Positions 52,890 through 59,749 of a stretch of 64,000 nt of DNA are shown here, in pieces; position 1 is the stretch's first letter, and each line of letters opens with the position of its first letter. Under the pieces are notes generated by a model, which saw only the letters and a list, made by a program, of their open reading frames with translations, was not told the origin of the DNA and searched no databases. The translations under genes and the position numbers were made by a program. This DNA comes from Anaerolineae bacterium (GTDB lineage Bacteria; Chloroflexota; Anaerolineae; Aggregatilineales; Aggregatilineaceae), in the NCBI GenBank assembly GCA_018432315.1, contig JAHDLB010000012.1:124001-188000 (forward strand), in the 5' to 3' direction.

Positions 52890-54533
52890 ATGAATAAGCG
52901 ACGTTACACCGTCCTATCGCTGCTGTTGGTTGCTGTGATGGCCCTGGCCGTCGTGTCGGTACCGAGTGGCGCCGAAGCCCAGGGCTTCGAGCCGATGTCG
53001 TACTCAGCGGAGAGCTGCGACTATGGCGGCGAGTTCCTGTCGATTGAAGCGCTCGACGAGTACACCGTGAAGTTCACGCTGTGCTATCCGGACCCGGCAT
53101 TCCCCTCGAAGGCCGCCTTCTCGGCCTTCGCGATCCACAGCGCCGAGTATCTGGAAGCGACCGGCGGCGGTGGTGACCTGGTAGATAACCCCATCGGCAC
53201 CGGCCCCTACATGATGGAATCGTGGACCCGTGGCGACAACCTGACCCTCAAGCGTTACGAGGACTACTGGGGAACCCCGGCCCTGACCGACACCGTCGTC
53301 TTCCGGTGGAACTCCGAGGGCGCGGCCCGTCTGACCGAGCTGCAGGCCGGCACCGTTGACGGCATCGACAACCCCAGCCCCGATGACTACGAGAAGATCC
53401 GTGACGACGAAAACCTGATCCTGTACGATCGTCCCGGCACCAACGTCTTCTACATCGGCTTCAACAACTGGTACGAGCCGGTGGACGATGTCCAGGTGCG
53501 CCAGGCCCTGGCGATGGCAATCGACCGCCAGCGCATCGTCGACAACTTCTACCCGGCTGGCTCGATCGTGGCGACGCAGTTCATGCCGCCGGTCATCTTC
53601 GGTTATACGCCTGAGGTGTCGTGGTACGACTTCGATCCGGAAGCCGCCCGCGCCCTGCTGGCCGAAGCCGGTTATCCCGATGGATTCGAGATCACGCTGA
53701 ACTACCGCGATGTGTTCCGCTCGTACCTGCCCGAACCGGGTCGCGTGGCCGAGGACATCCAGGCCCAGCTCGCTGAGAACCTGAACGTGACCGTCAACAT
53801 CGAGGTCATGGAATCGGGCGCTTTCATCGACGCGAGTGACGCCGGTGAACTGGCGATGTACCTGTTGGGTTGGGGCGCGGACTATCCGGATGCGACCAAC
53901 TTCCTCGACTACCACTTTGGTCTGGGTGCATCGGACCAGTTCGGTGACACGTTCGAGAGCATCACGACCCCGCTGCGCGCCGCTGCGCAGATCGCTGACC
54001 CGGCTGAGCGCCTGACGCTCTACGTCGAGGCCAACCAGGCCATCAAGGACAACGTCCCGATGATCCCCGTGGCGCACGGCGCTTCGGCGACCGCCTTCAA
54101 GGCCACTGTCGAGGGCGCGCACGCCAGCCCGCTGGGCAACGAAATGTTCATGGTGATGCAGGTGCCGGGCCAGGACACCCTGGTGTGGATGCAGAACGCC
54201 GAGCCGATCGGCCTGTACTGCGCTGACGAGACCGACGGCGAATCGCTGCGCGGTTGCGAGCAAATCAACGAATCGCTGCTGGCCTTCGAGGTGGGCGGCA
54301 CCGCTGTCCAACCCAGCCTGGCCGAGAGCTACGAAGCCAACGAAGACGGCACCGAGTGGACCTTCAATCTGCGCGAAGGCGTCACCTTCCACGATGGTTC
54401 GTCGCTCGACGCGAATGACGTCGTGCTGTCCTTCGTGGTTCAGTGGGATGCGTCGCACCCGCTGCACGTGGGTCGCAACGGCAGCTTCGCTTACTTCCCC
54501 GGCCTGTTCGGAGCTTTCTTGAACGCCGAGTAA
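52890..54533 (+). CDS. Family 5 (oligopeptide-type) ABC binding protein, apparently circularly permuted
   Basis: 547 residues. Signal peptide (MNKRRYTVLSLLLVAVMALA, cleavage near AEA-Q31), no lipobox. Right after it the protein opens with segments that lie well inside normal SBP_bac_5 proteins: SIEALDEYTVKFTLCYPDPA, IGTGPYMMESWTRGDN, DVQVRQALAMAIDRQRIVDN. The segments that normally come first sit at the C terminus: DTLVWMQNAEPIGLYCADET (about 430), SLAESYEANEDGTEWTFNLR, EGVTFHDGSSLDANDVVLSF. It ends at FGAFLNAE. The order is thus rotated, with an intact signal peptide and one continuous frame. It should deliver peptides or similar ligands to the downstream permeases. Confidence 0.85.
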   Translation: MNKRRYTVLSLLLVAVMALAVVSVPSGAEAQGFEPMSYSAESCDYGGEFLSIEALDEYTVKFTLCYPDPAFPSKAAFSAFAIHSAEYLEATGGGGDLVDNPIGTGPYMMESWTRGDNLTLKRYEDYWGTPALTDTVVFRWNSEGAARLTELQAGTVDGIDNPSPDDYEKIRDDENLILYDRPGTNVFYIGFNNWYEPVDDVQVRQALAMAIDRQRIVDNFYPAGSIVATQFMPPVIFGYTPEVSWYDFDPEAARALLAEAGYPDGFEITLNYRDVFRSYLPEPGRVAEDIQAQLAENLNVTVNIEVMESGAFIDASDAGELAMYLLGWGADYPDATNFLDYHFGLGASDQFGDTFESITTPLRAAAQIADPAERLTLYVEANQAIKDNVPMIPVAHGASATAFKATVEGAHASPLGNEMFMVMQVPGQDTLVWMQNAEPIGLYCADETDGESLRGCEQINESLLAFEVGGTAVQPSLAESYEANEDGTEWTFNLREGVTFHDGSSLDANDVVLSFVVQWDASHPLHVGRNGSFAYFPGLFGAFLNAE

Positions 54534-54705: not shown

Positions 54706-55779
54706 ATGGCAAGTTATCTTGCGCGGCGTCTGACGCTGGCTATCCCGGTTCTGCTGGGGATTTTGTTTGTAACCTTCTCGCTGACGCGCCTGTTGCCGGG
54801 GGATCCGTGCCGGTCTGCCCTGGGCGAAAAGGCGACTGATGAGATCTGTGATGCATTCAACGACCGTTACGGACTCAACGACCCGATTTACGAACAGTTT
54901 CGTATTTACATCAGCGACGTGCTGCATGGCAATTTGGGCGAATCACTCAAGTTTGGCCGCCCCGTCACCGAGCTGATGGTCGAGCGGCTGCCGGTCACGC
55001 TAGAGCTGAGCTTTTTCGCCATGCTGTTTGCCGTCACGGTGGGCATTCCGCTGGGCGTTATCTCGGCCTATTATCACAACTCGTCGATCGACGTCGGCAC
55101 GATGATCTGGGCCAATATCGGCGTGTCGATGCCGGTATTCTGGCTGGGATTGATGCTATCGTACGTCTTCGGCGTGGTCCTCAAAGACACGCCGTTCTGG
55201 CTGCCCCCGACCGGGCGCCTGACCGCCGGCCAGTCGATCGAGCCATTTTACGTCGCCTGGGGCCTGAATGTCGATGGCGACGCGCTCACGCTGCCGGGCT
55301 TCATCGCCAACATCAACACCCTCAACGCCTTGCTGGTCCGCGACTGGGATGGGTTCGTCGACGCGTTCAAGCACATGGTCCTGCCCGCCATCGCCGTCGG
55401 GACCATTCCGCTGTCGATCATCGCGCGCATGACGCGCTCCAGCCTGCTGGAAGTGCTGGGGCTCAATTACATCCGCACGGCGCGCGCCAAAGGCGTGCGC
55501 GAAATGGGCGTGGTCGTCAAACACGGCCTGCGCAACGCGCTGCTGCCGGTCGTGACCATCATCGGGCTGTCGCTCGGTTCGCTGTTGAGTGGGGCTGTCC
55601 TCACCGAAACGGTCTTCGGGCTGTCTGGCGTGGGGCGCATTCTGTACGATTCAATCACAGGCCGCGATTACACCGTGGTCCAGGCGTTTACGTTGATCAT
55701 TGCCGTCTTCTTCGTCTTCATCAATCTCATTGTGGACGCCCTATATGCCTATCTTGATCCGCGCATTCGACTTGAGTAA
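54706..55779 (+). CDS. dppB: Peptide ABC transporter permease, DppB type
   Basis: 357 residues. An integral membrane permease of the DppB/OppB type. N-terminal helix (YLARRLTLAIPVLLGILFVT, FSLTRLLPGDPC), then FGRPVTELMVERLPVTLELS, then the main permease core. The ATPase-coupling loop is YIRTARAKGVREMGVVVKHG and is followed by LRNALLPVVTIIGLSLG. The end YAYLDPRIRLE is the typical C terminus. An enlarged external loop lies at about 150-215 (FWLPPTGRLTAGQSIEP, FYVAWGLNVDGDALT). It follows the hairpin by 112 bases. Confidence 0.94.
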   Translation: MASYLARRLTLAIPVLLGILFVTFSLTRLLPGDPCRSALGEKATDEICDAFNDRYGLNDPIYEQFRIYISDVLHGNLGESLKFGRPVTELMVERLPVTLELSFFAMLFAVTVGIPLGVISAYYHNSSIDVGTMIWANIGVSMPVFWLGLMLSYVFGVVLKDTPFWLPPTGRLTAGQSIEPFYVAWGLNVDGDALTLPGFIANINTLNALLVRDWDGFVDAFKHMVLPAIAVGTIPLSIIARMTRSSLLEVLGLNYIRTARAKGVREMGVVVKHGLRNALLPVVTIIGLSLGSLLSGAVLTETVFGLSGVGRILYDSITGRDYTVVQAFTLIIAVFFVFINLIVDALYAYLDPRIRLE

Positions 55780-55787
55780 GAGCCATT

Positions 55788-57716
55788 ATGGAATCCACCG
55801 ATCAATCTCCTGAAGTTCAGTTAGCCGCTGCAGACGCAACGGTCATCTCGCGGCCCCCGAAAAGCCTCTGGCGCGAAACGCTCGAACGACTGCTCCGCAA
55901 ACCCTCGGCTGTGGTCGGCCTGGTGATCCTCGGAACGCTGTTGTTCATCGCCATCTTCGCCCCGGTGCTCGCCACGCACGACCCCCTGCAGGTGCTGTTG
56001 GACGTCCCCGAAGAAGGCGTCGGCAAACGCGACAAACCCTGCATTCACCTGTTCGGCTGTCCGGGCGCGGGCGACAGCCTGTTCGACGCGACAGCGGCCT
56101 CGGACATTCAGATGGCCGCCCTCAGCGCGACCAACTCGCTGATCTCAGCGACGAGCGGCAACACGATCACGATCTGGAACCGTGGCTCGGGCAAAAAGCT
56201 GATGGACCTTCAGGCCGATCAGCCGATTTTCGCCATCGATTGGAGTCCCAACGACCAGAAAATTCTCGGCATCACGGAAGACGAGGTGATCGTTTGGGAC
56301 GTCAACCGCCGCCAGATCGATCGCACGCTGGAAAACCCAGGCGGGGCCACACTGGTGAAATGGAACGCTGACGGCACCCGGTTCCTGACCGCCAGCGACC
56401 GGCGGGTCGATTTGTGGGATACGCTGTCGTGGGGCGTGGTGAGCACAATCGAGCTTGAATCCGACCTGACCGAAGTAGCCTGGAACGGCAACGGCACCCT
56501 GGTCATGACCGCCGCCGGGCGGCAGGTGCAGCTCTGGAACGTGTTCACCGGGACAGCCGTCACCACCCTGGAACACGAAAACCCGGTGACCAGCGCACGC
56601 TTCAACCGGGGCAGCACCCGCATCGTGACGACTGCCGGCACGACGCTGCACGTGTGGAACGCGGCGAGCTTCGCCGAGGAACGCGTGATCGAATACGACC
56701 AGCCGCTCGACAACGCCGCCTGGAGCGACGATCTCTCGCGCGGGGTGGAGCGCGTCATGGCGACCAGCGGCAATACCGGCCTGATGTGGAGTTCTCGAAG
56801 CGGCGAACTGCTGCACGAATTCGACCACGGGGCGCCCATCGAGCAGATCGCCAGCAGCCCGCTCGCGACGCGCATTTTCACCAAAAGCGAGCAGTTGCTG
56901 CGGGTGTGGGACGCTACGAATGGCGAGCACATCTTGTCGCAAGAAACGGACGGCGTGTTGACCAGCACGGCCTGGCAGACCAACGGCGGCGGGATTCTCG
57001 TCGCGGATGGGGACGCGGTCAACATCCTCAAGACGTCGGATAGGCAGTACATCATGGGCATCGACGGCAATGTGCGCGACCAGTTCAGCCGGGTGATCTA
57101 CGGGACGCGGCTCTCGCTGCTGGTCGGCCTGACGACCGTCACGCTGGCGGTGATCGTCGGCACGATCTCCGGCGCGATTGCGGGCTTCCTCGGGGGCTGG
57201 GTGGACAACGTGATCATGCGCATCATGGACGTGATGCTCGCCTTCCCGTCGCTGATCCTGGCGATCGCCGTGGTCACCGTGTTGGGTCCCGGTTTGATCA
57301 ACGCCCTGACCGCCATTTCGATCGTGTTCATTCCGGCCTATGCACGCGTGGCCCGGTCCGGCGTGCTGTCCGTCAAGGAAGAAGACTTCGTCACCGCCGA
57401 CCGCGCGCTGGGCGTCAGCCAGGTTCGCATTCTGTTCCGCCGCGTGCTGCCCAACGCGATGGCGCCGCTGATCGTGCAGGCCACGCTGGGCATCGGCACC
57501 GCGATTCTGGACGCTGCCGCGCTGTCGTTCCTGGGCCTGGGCGCGCAGCCCCCTACCCCGGAATGGGGCGCCATGTTGGGTGCCGAGCGCAACCAGGTCT
57601 TCACCGCGCCGCACCTGGTCTTTTATCCGGGCATCGCCATTATGATCACGGTGCTGGCCTTCAACCTGCTGGGCGACGGCCTGCGCGATGCGCTCGATCC
57701 GCGCCTGGATCGCTGA
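55788..57716 (+). CDS. dppC: DppC-type permease with inserted WD40-like propeller
   Basis: 642 residues, against about 290-310 for ordinary DppC. Residues about 38-62 form the first membrane helix (SAVVGLVILGTLLFIAIFAP). The conserved loop motif that normally reads H-P-F-G-T-D-x-x-G-R-D begins as HLFGCPGAGD at about 86. It is interrupted by about 330 residues and resumes as GNVRDQFSRVIYGTRLSLLV at about 426. The insert has about eight WD40-like units with Trp-Asn/Asp ends (TITIWNRGSG, EVIVWDVNRR, RVDLWDTLSW, QVQLWNVFTG, LHVWNAASF, LLRVWDATNG). The rest is a normal permease with the coupling loop DFVTADRALGVSQVRILFRR. The insert should be on the external side. Its function is unknown. Confidence 0.9.
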   Translation: MESTDQSPEVQLAAADATVISRPPKSLWRETLERLLRKPSAVVGLVILGTLLFIAIFAPVLATHDPLQVLLDVPEEGVGKRDKPCIHLFGCPGAGDSLFDATAASDIQMAALSATNSLISATSGNTITIWNRGSGKKLMDLQADQPIFAIDWSPNDQKILGITEDEVIVWDVNRRQIDRTLENPGGATLVKWNADGTRFLTASDRRVDLWDTLSWGVVSTIELESDLTEVAWNGNGTLVMTAAGRQVQLWNVFTGTAVTTLEHENPVTSARFNRGSTRIVTTAGTTLHVWNAASFAEERVIEYDQPLDNAAWSDDLSRGVERVMATSGNTGLMWSSRSGELLHEFDHGAPIEQIASSPLATRIFTKSEQLLRVWDATNGEHILSQETDGVLTSTAWQTNGGGILVADGDAVNILKTSDRQYIMGIDGNVRDQFSRVIYGTRLSLLVGLTTVTLAVIVGTISGAIAGFLGGWVDNVIMRIMDVMLAFPSLILAIAVVTVLGPGLINALTAISIVFIPAYARVARSGVLSVKEEDFVTADRALGVSQVRILFRRVLPNAMAPLIVQATLGIGTAILDAAALSFLGLGAQPPTPEWGAMLGAERNQVFTAPHLVFYPGIAIMITVLAFNLLGDGLRDALDPRLDR

Positions 57717-57728
57717 TAGGGTAACGTC

Positions 57729-58751
57729 ATGACCAAACACCAGCACGACTTCCAACCTTCCACAAATTCCCAGCCCTTGCTGGAAATCCACGACCTGCGC
57801 ACCTACTTCTTCACGCGCGACGGCACCGTCAAAGCGGTTGATGGCGTCTCACTGACCGTCGAGCGCGGCCAGATTCACGGCCTCGTCGGCGAGTCGGGCT
57901 GCGGCAAGAGCATGACGGCCATGTCGATCCTGCGCCTGGTCGACAAGCCGGGCCGGATCGTGTCCGGCGAGGTCCTGTTCAAGGGCGAAGACCTGCTCAA
58001 GAAAACGCGCCACGAGATGACGGCCATTCGCGGCAAGCAGATCTCGGTCATCTTCCAGGAGCCGAAATCCTCGTTGAACCCGGTGCTCCGCGTGGGCACC
58101 CAGCTCATCGAAGTGCTCAGGATTCACGAGGGCAAGCAGCGCACCATCAAGCGAAAAGATGCCGTCGAACAACTCCGCAGCGTGGGCATCCCCGACCCGG
58201 ACCGGCGCGTGGAGAACTACCCGCACGAAATGTCGGGCGGCATGGCACAGCGCGTCATGATCGCGATGGGGATGGCCTGCGCGCCGGACCTGCTGATCGC
58301 GGACGAGCCGACGACCGCGCTCGACGTGACCATCCAGGCCCAGGTGCTGGACCTGATCCGCAAGCTGCGCGACGAGCACGAGATGGGCGTCATCCTGATC
58401 ACCCACGACATGGGCATCGTCGCCGAGATGGCCGACATCGTGACCGTGATGTACGCGGGCACCGCCGTCGAGGAAGCGCCGACGGTCGAGCTGTTCGAGA
58501 CGCCGCTCCACCCCTACACCCAGGGATTGATCGCGTCGATCCCGGTGATGGGCCAGGTCAAAGAGCGGCTGGAAGTCATCCCCGGCAACGTTCCGAACCT
58601 GATCGACATGCCGCCCGGCTGCCGGTTTGCGCCGCGCTGCAAGGCGCGGATCGAGCATGGGCTGACCCGCTGCGAGGTCGAGGAGCCGCACATGATCGAG
58701 GCCAAACCCAACCATTTCGTTCGCTGCTGGCTATACGAAGGTGAGTCATGA
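57729..58751 (+). CDS. dppD: Peptide ABC transporter ATP-binding protein, DppD type
   Basis: 340 residues. Motifs: Walker [15 protein letters not shown]-loop in [13 protein letters not shown], signature [14 protein letters not shown] (the usual LSGGQ is MSGGM, common in DppD), Walker [14 protein letters not shown]-loop [13 protein letters not shown]. The C-terminal oligopeptide-ABC extension has the cysteines of the recently recognised Fe-S-like site ([16 protein letters not shown], then TRCEVEEPH). It pairs with DppF and binds the coupling loops of DppB/DppC. It overlaps dppF by 4 bases. Confidence 0.95.
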
Positions 58752-59749
58752 CCGAAGAAAACCTGCTCGAAATCCGCGACCTGAAAGTGCACTTCGAAAT
58801 CAAGAGCGGCATTCTCAAACGCACTGCCGGCGTCGTGAAAGCGGTCGATGGCGTGGACCTGGACATCCGGCGCGGCGAGATCCTGGGCCTGGTTGGTGAA
58901 TCGGGCTGCGGCAAAACCACGGTGGGGCGCGCGATTCTGCGGCTGGTCGAGGCGACGTCCGGCTCGGTGAAGTTCAAGGGGCGCGACATCTTCAAGCTGA
59001 GCAGCACGGAAATGAAGCCGCTGCGCCGGGAGATGCAGTTGGTGTTTCAGGACCCGTACTCCTCGCTCGACCCGCGCTCGAAGGTGGGCGACATCGTGGG
59101 CGAGGGCCTGCGCGTGCACGGCGTCACCGATCGCAAGGAGCGCTATCGCCGCGTGCTCGAGGCGCTCGAAATGGTCGGGCTGCAAGAGCCGCACATGCGC
59201 CGCTTCCCGCACGAATTCTCCGGCGGCCAGCGCCAGCGTATCGGGATCGCGCGCGCGCTGGTGGTCAAGCCGAGCTTCATCGTGTGCGACGAGCCTGTTT
59301 CGGCGCTCGACGTGTCGATCCAGTCGCAGGTGCTCAACCTGCTCAAGGACCTCCAGCAGGAGCTGGACCTGACGCTGCTGTTCATCGCGCACGATATGAG
59401 CGTGGTCGAGCATCTCTGCAACCGGGTGGCGGTGATGTACCTGGGCAAAATCGTCGAGGTCGCCGAGCGCGAGGAATTGTTCGGCAACCCGCAGCACCCC
59501 TACACCCAGGCGCTGATGTCCGCCATCCCGATCGCCGATCCGAAAGTGAAGCGCGAGCGCATCATCCTGCCGGGGGATCCGCCCAGCCCGCTGCGCCCGC
59601 CGCCCGGCTGCCGGTTCCACACTCGCTGCCCCGAGGCGATCGACATCTGCTCGCAGGAAATCCCGCAGCAGATCGACCTGGGCCGGCAGCATCTGTGTGC
59701 GTGCCACCTGCGCCAGCCGGAGCCGGACGCCGTCCAACAGCCCGCGTGA
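58748..59749 (+). CDS. dppF: Peptide ABC transporter ATP-binding protein, DppF type
   Basis: 333 residues. Walker [17 protein letters not shown]-loop [13 protein letters not shown], signature [15 protein letters not shown], Walker [14 protein letters not shown]-loop [14 protein letters not shown]. The C-terminal extension [20 protein letters not shown] carries the conserved cysteines. The N-terminal insertion ([20 protein letters not shown]) is typical of DppF/OppF. It closes the five-gene operon. Confidence 0.95.

Follow-up and report, generated by a model that had tools for sequence, protein, structure and literature searches.

A DppC/OppC-type permease with a predicted WD40 β-propeller in its first external loop in Anaerolineae

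The operon and its permease gene

The window, by which we denote the whole analysed stretch of 64,000 nucleotides of Anaerolineae DNA (contig JAHDLB010000012.1), harbours an operon which comprises the genes of a family-5 substrate-binding protein, the permease subunits DppB and DppC, and two oligo_HPY ATPases. Its features, including the parts of the permease gene considered below, are the following:

52890..54533, + strand: family-5 substrate-binding protein, circularly permuted, signal peptide without lipobox
54706..55779, + strand: partner permease DppB, ordinary architecture
55788..57716, + strand: DppC-type permease with inserted, predicted eight-bladed WD40 propeller, 642 aa (open reading frame, Pfam, AlphaFold2, PDB superposition)
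55788..56060, + strand: N-terminal permease part, residues 1-91, with OppC_N, TM1 and the loop ending in PCIHLFGC (Pfam, alignments)
56061..57044, + strand: inserted segment, residues 92-419 (328 aa; alignment, phylum-sample relatives having 5 residues here)
56076..57032, + strand: propeller core, residues 97-415, predicted 32 strands and eight blades (AlphaFold2 model, PDB superpositions)
57045..57713, + strand: C-terminal permease part, residues 420-642, with QYIMGIDGNVRDQFSR, the remaining membrane helices and BPD_transp_1 (Pfam, alignment to E. coli DppC)
57729..58751, + strand: ATPase of the DppD/OppD type
58748..59749, + strand: ATPase of the DppF/OppF type

The open reading frame at 55788-57716 (+) is uninterrupted and encodes 642 residues. 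Pfam assigns OppC_N to residues 26-67 (46.2 bits versus a cut-off of 23.9) and BPD_transp_1 to residues 458-641 (119.6 bits versus a cut-off of 26.4); both permease halves are present in frame within one intact gene, as a previous sequence-only reading of this DNA had maintained. The region between the two domains is matched by WD40-type models, the generic WD40 model reaching 54 bits versus a cut-off of 27 (E = 1.7e-14). The C part aligns to residues 78-299 of E. coli DppC (8z1v_B, E = 5.3e-73). The protein reaches none of the NCBIfam equivalog cut-offs (PRK10913, for instance, 280.7 versus 483 bits), partly because only its C part matches, and we therefore call it a permease of the DppC/OppC type, not a proven dipeptide permease DppC in the strict sense. 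Judged from its domains and its operon, it is a DppC/OppC-type permease of a type I ABC importer.

Aligned to unfused orthologues, the permease sequence can be followed as far as HLFGCP (residues 87-92) and then again from QYIMGIDGNVRDQFSR at residue 420 onwards, not far from the positions of about 86 and about 426 which had been read from the sequence before. In an unfused orthologue the corresponding loop reads, for example, HLFGCP-QEQP-QHIMGIDGN. Comparison of the flanks with ordinary DppC, which the sequence-only reading had proposed as a check, shows the spacing between Cys91 and Gln420 to be 5 residues in 36/36 DppC rows of the phylum sample versus 328 in the window. These 36 are the rows with both flanks aligned; among the 40 loci, three lack DppC in the stretch, and L217, whose loop looks shorter, gives no N-terminal match. 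Cys85 and Cys91 are invariant in 22 aligned rows, fused and unfused alike. Among unfused rows of the window's order the loop length varies slightly, amounting to 3 residues in L018 and L041. In L043 (5530-6717), an unfused Caldilineales relative adjoining the fused clade, the stretch between the two loop cysteines is longer, so that the loop region is naturally variable in length. No insert upstream of the FSR motif is observed among the best 80 of at least 591 relatives in a scan of the genome contigs, the row of L048 being truncated by a contig end. Two further candidates for a fusion, G101 (687 codons from stop to stop) and G000:C61 (652 codons), turned out to be ordinary permeases in long frames.

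E. coli DppC possesses six membrane helices, and the region between TM1 and TM2 is termed periplasmic in the available passages of PMC12136057, which would place the propeller of the window's protein outside the membrane. By homology, its probable place is the outward-facing side of the translocator, to which the binding protein brings substrate. Chloroflexota are mostly single-membraned. Together with the borders obtained from the unfused orthologues, the homology to E. coli DppC agrees with the earlier assignment of the insertion to the first external loop. Cysteines are absent from the insert in nine of the ten fused proteins, which is consistent with, and lends weak support to, an outside location. 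The tenth, L152 (4253-6298, G062), is the most distant fusion; it has two cysteines, Cys210 and Cys219, situated in an extended propeller loop, and also shows extra residues in a later permease loop.

Fold of the inserted segment

With 22 aligned sequences as input, AlphaFold2 yields a good model of the insert (block pLDDT 83-97 across residues 101-410). The model contains 32 strands across residues 97-415, which follow each other as one strand, seven sets of four strands and a last set of three. We infer eight four-stranded blades, provided that strand 97-102 completes the last blade (strands 391-415) in the manner of other WD40 rings; this closure is read from the strand order and the PDB matches of a predicted, not a solved, structure. 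VIA-align superposes the insert on ODA16 (Z 37.6, 330 residues) and on the designed eight-bladed protein Tako8 (Z 31.7, 303 residues), and Foldseek agrees with VIA-align on the match to WD40 propellers. Hence, the insert combines repeats above the Pfam cut-off with a predicted closed ring of four-stranded blades, the characteristics of a WD40 β-propeller. The sequence-only reading had counted about eight repeats, considered them sufficient for a closed propeller and proposed a structure prediction; the single-chain model indeed gives a propeller whose 32 strands make up eight blades and which superposes over its full length on WD40 propellers. According to this model, the first outside loop of one membrane subunit of the importer carries a complete eight-bladed WD40 propeller. 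A folded domain in an outside permease loop, a trait reminiscent of MalF-P2, is thus found here, outside by homology and folded by prediction. The permease part is modelled weakly (block pLDDT 38-83, whole-model pTM 0.61), so that the AlphaFold2 model does not fix how the propeller is seated and oriented on the membrane.

The outside position on a moving subunit, itself deduced from homology, would suit a sensor which turns the importer into a receptor-transporter. Nothing else speaks in favour of this reading, and Pfam detects no signalling domain in the protein; we consider it highly improbable.

The propeller of L125 (6013-8331, G011) is distinguished by long acidic extensions between strands, its insert amounting to 455 aa with 74 Asp and Glu versus 22 Lys and Arg.

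Distribution and origin of the fusion

The full fusion occurs in 10 of 154 genomes of the window's order. Nine of these (G000, G002, G003, G007, G008, G009, G011, G013 and G017) belong to the window's family, which counts 18 genomes, and one (G062) to another family. OppC_N, BPD_transp_1 and WD40 are all matched at E<=1e-5 in 10/10 fused members. The sequence-only reading had proposed a search for further DppC proteins with WD40 matches and had named an assembly join as one finding that would refute it. Since the same in-frame fusion with the same borders recurs in ten genomes, an assembly join, a gene-calling artefact or a chance repeat is ruled out; nothing was found in favour of an assembly or gene-calling artefact, to which we assign a practically negligible probability.

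The other nine genomes of the family are devoid of the whole operon, not merely of the propeller, their best DppC matches reaching about 50-55% identity in the C part. When the insert serves as query, 1/396 genomes of the class sample is matched, the own one only (E<=1e-20), and 11/400 genomes of the phylum sample (E<=1e-15), the own one plus ten. At none of the 11 non-own places (21-31% identity) is a permease half present in the same reading frame. Both scans were restricted to five candidates per genome. None of the nine other known carriers surfaced, so the samples evidently did not draw them, and the scans show rarity of the fusion rather than absence. A donor of the propeller was not found, the nearest WD40 match in the own genome being 31-32% identical over about 150 residues.

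A DppC tree that excludes the insert and also comprises 24 unfused and 6 outgroup rows unites the ten fused rows in a single clade (100/99). This clade adjoins L043 (95/84) inside a group with L017, L019, L038 and L039. The fused rows likewise form one clade in the trees of the binding protein (97/92) and of DppB (100/97). As the three trees agree, a single insertion, inherited by one clade together with binding protein and DppB as part of the operon, is the most likely origin.

The identity of the insert to that of the window amounts to 50-57% in seven of the eight family partners, 40% in L125 and 37% in L152; for the C part it is 88-92% in the family partners and 78% in L152. We determined dN/dS in 7 of 45 pairs. 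In the closest pair the insert has a value of 0.063 and the C part one of 0.005; in the six more distant pairs, in several of which dS is near saturation, the values are 0.19-0.45 for the insert versus 0.04-0.17. The insert is under purifying selection, and its low dN/dS could be explained by folding constraint alone. A conserved interaction face was sought on the propeller and none was found; best conserved are the a-b turns, which could again be accounted for by folding.

With a single origin and a conservation consistent with folding constraint alone, the propeller might be a tolerated passenger, i.e. a compact domain with adjacent ends, inserted once into a permissive loop and kept without any specific task since its precise removal is unlikely. 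The loop region also tolerates other changes in length, as between the cysteines of L043 and, within the propeller, in the acidic extensions of L125. On the other hand, 328 residues are kept and folded in 10/10 carriers, which represent at least nine genera in one family and a single genus in a second, with no reversion seen. We hold a mere passenger to be distinctly unlikely.

The binding protein and the lipid anchor of its relatives

The circular permutation of the binding protein relative to DppA becomes evident from its alignment to 3m8u_A, in which its residues 437-539 match residues 11-120 and its residues 50-417 match residues 127-499; the model of the protein is good (pLDDT 84.8, pTM 0.80). 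Our literature search yielded no paper on circular permutation of such binding proteins. At E<=1e-110, permuted relatives, mostly matching along the full length, are present in 54 of 400 genomes of the phylum sample, and the permutation is therefore not special to the fusion. Within the window's family the binding protein is found in 9/9 genomes with the fusion and in 0/9 without it (E<=1e-60), and it is also present in G062; its co-occurrence with the fusion within the family is no more than expected for genes of one importer. In the near-identical fusion carriers L168 and L169 (G013 and G017) the binding-protein gene resides on a different contig from dppBCDF.

Arg277 and Asp331 of the binding protein are the counterparts of DppA Arg383 and Asp436 and are invariant in 21 aligned rows. 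In DppA these two residues bind the ends of the dipeptide, as stated in the accessible part of PMC12136057. From this correspondence, the substrate of the importer is likely a peptide.

Scored by our own pattern instead of a trained predictor, a lipobox is present in the binding protein of 0/10 fused genomes versus 36/40 phylum-sample relatives. The four phylum rows not scored as lipidated comprise L180 (extended frame), L204 (LSAAC motif below the hydrophobicity threshold), L205 (no readable signal) and L211 (signal without lipobox). Among unfused close relatives, a lipobox is also missing in 8/9 readable rows of the window's order and in 3/6 rows of the genome contigs, one species occurring in both. 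A replacement of the lipid anchor by the propeller as a strict rule is thereby ruled out. In a quick binding-protein tree of 43 rows, for which 20 of the 40 phylum loci were used, the lipidated rows are confined to one side of a branch (98), and the clade of fused rows (99) adjoins unlipidated, unfused rows. The loss of lipidation thus fits one change separate from the insertion of the propeller. The fusion is seen only with an unlipidated binding protein, yet unlipidated binding proteins exist without it, so that the link is no more than suggestive.

Relation to known systems

Both permease halves align with E. coli DppC/OppC (PDB 8z1v, 8z21), and the order SBP-DppB-DppC-DppD-DppF is common to both operons; compared to these permeases, the window's protein has an additional, predicted WD40 propeller of 328 residues between TM1 and TM2. 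The unfused Chloroflexota orthologues (e.g. L038, L126 and L179) are 66-79% identical in the C part in the rows seen and share the permuted binding protein and the PCIHLLGC loop, but possess a short loop where the window's protein carries the propeller.

Like the window's protein, MalF has an external loop that bears a large folded domain (P2, residues 91-271), with a possible role in docking of the binding protein, according to the portion of PMC3150292 at hand. The window's domain is found in a different loop and shows a different fold, and docking is, in its case, only proposed. MalF-P2 sits between TM3 and TM4 and is not a propeller. The fold of the insert is shared by Tako8, ODA16, Sif2 and Rsa4 (Z 31-38 over about 300-330 residues); these, however, are soluble proteins, not parts of a permease, and only 12-22% identical. 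The metallochaperone AztD of a zinc importer is likewise an extracytoplasmic propeller serving an ABC importer (PMC6689063, as far as available). In contrast to the window's propeller, AztD is a separate, soluble protein with a metal ligand and acts on another kind of binding protein.

The sequence-only reading knew of no described peptide permease with this architecture. In agreement with this, we found no description of a propeller within a permease in open-licence PMC full text. The component families are known; their combination seems to be undescribed. Type I peptide importers are generally regarded as having a common architecture. The loop of the fused permease accepts a domain of 328 residues without loss of the permease halves, which would make the protein a natural template for importer engineering. 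As a putative natural interaction platform at the landing site of the binding protein, it may also provide a test case for the membrane retention of unlipidated binding proteins.

Proposed function of the propeller

Among the roles which the sequence-only reading had suggested, namely docking of a binding protein, filtering of substrate and sensing of a ligand, we tentatively favour the first. By analogy to MalF-P2 and MalE, the propeller may be an integral part of the permease on which the binding protein of the same operon docks or is retained, a reading to which we give somewhat less than an even chance. On the outer face of the translocator, at the landing site of the binding protein, the propeller would hold a binding protein which is exported unlipidated. 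Both termini of the insert would be neighbours in blade 8, the blade completed by the first strand, enabling a rigid ring to hang from the loop without prising the membrane helices apart. In favour of docking we count that the propeller is situated where the binding protein would land, that WD40 proteins are described as interaction scaffolds in the passages available of PMC6689063, the precedent of MalF-P2, and the lipobox pattern. The co-occurrence of fusion and binding protein within the family, the agreement of the three trees and the purifying selection on the insert are likewise counted in its favour. Against it we count the fast divergence of the surface, the lack of a conserved face, and the separation of the binding-protein gene from dppB in 2 of the 10 fused genomes (G013 and G017). 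The unlipidated binding proteins of unfused relatives also count against it, indicating that a soluble binding protein needs no propeller.

Some of these observations would fit a different outside partner, such as an extracellular peptidase, a component of the cell wall or surface layer, or a neighbouring cell, by holding which the propeller would scaffold the importer in the envelope. WD40 propellers generally serve as scaffolds for interactions (PMC6689063, same passages), a fast-changing partner would fit the fast divergence of the surface, and unfused relatives with non-lipidated binding proteins do without a propeller. However, no candidate gene is conserved beside the operon, in a neighbourhood check targeted at the five operon proteins only. 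We regard such a partner as unlikely, albeit worth serious consideration.

If docking of the operon's own binding protein applies, the fused permease may represent a new importer design in which an outer interaction ring of the translocator captures a freely secreted, permuted binding protein and replaces the lipid anchor of most relatives. We consider this wider reading possible, if doubtful.

The propeller might, as a further possibility, capture or filter substrate at the mouth of the importer and pass the peptide on to the binding protein or the channel. A precedent is provided by the extracytoplasmic β-propeller AztD, which supplies the binding protein AztC with zinc (PMC6689063, in the part available). 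Furthermore, Phe276 and Ser278, which flank Arg277 (the counterpart of DppA Arg383) in the binding protein (52890-54533), are specific to the fused clade, making a shift of substrate handling in this clade possible. Yet, no conserved pocket or metal site was recognised in the propeller, nine of the ten inserts are free of cysteine, and the binding protein retains Arg277 and Asp331, so that it probably captures the substrate itself. We therefore judge a capturing or filtering propeller to be rather unlikely.

In total, 9 substitutions in the binding protein, 14 in DppB and 14 in DppC are specific to the fused clade, counts which are exploratory and uncontrolled for branch length. DppB (54706-55779) contains two cysteines in LPGDPCRSALGEKATDEIC, just after its first helix; the same region forms the scoop motif in E. 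coli DppB, as described in the available passages of PMC12136057.
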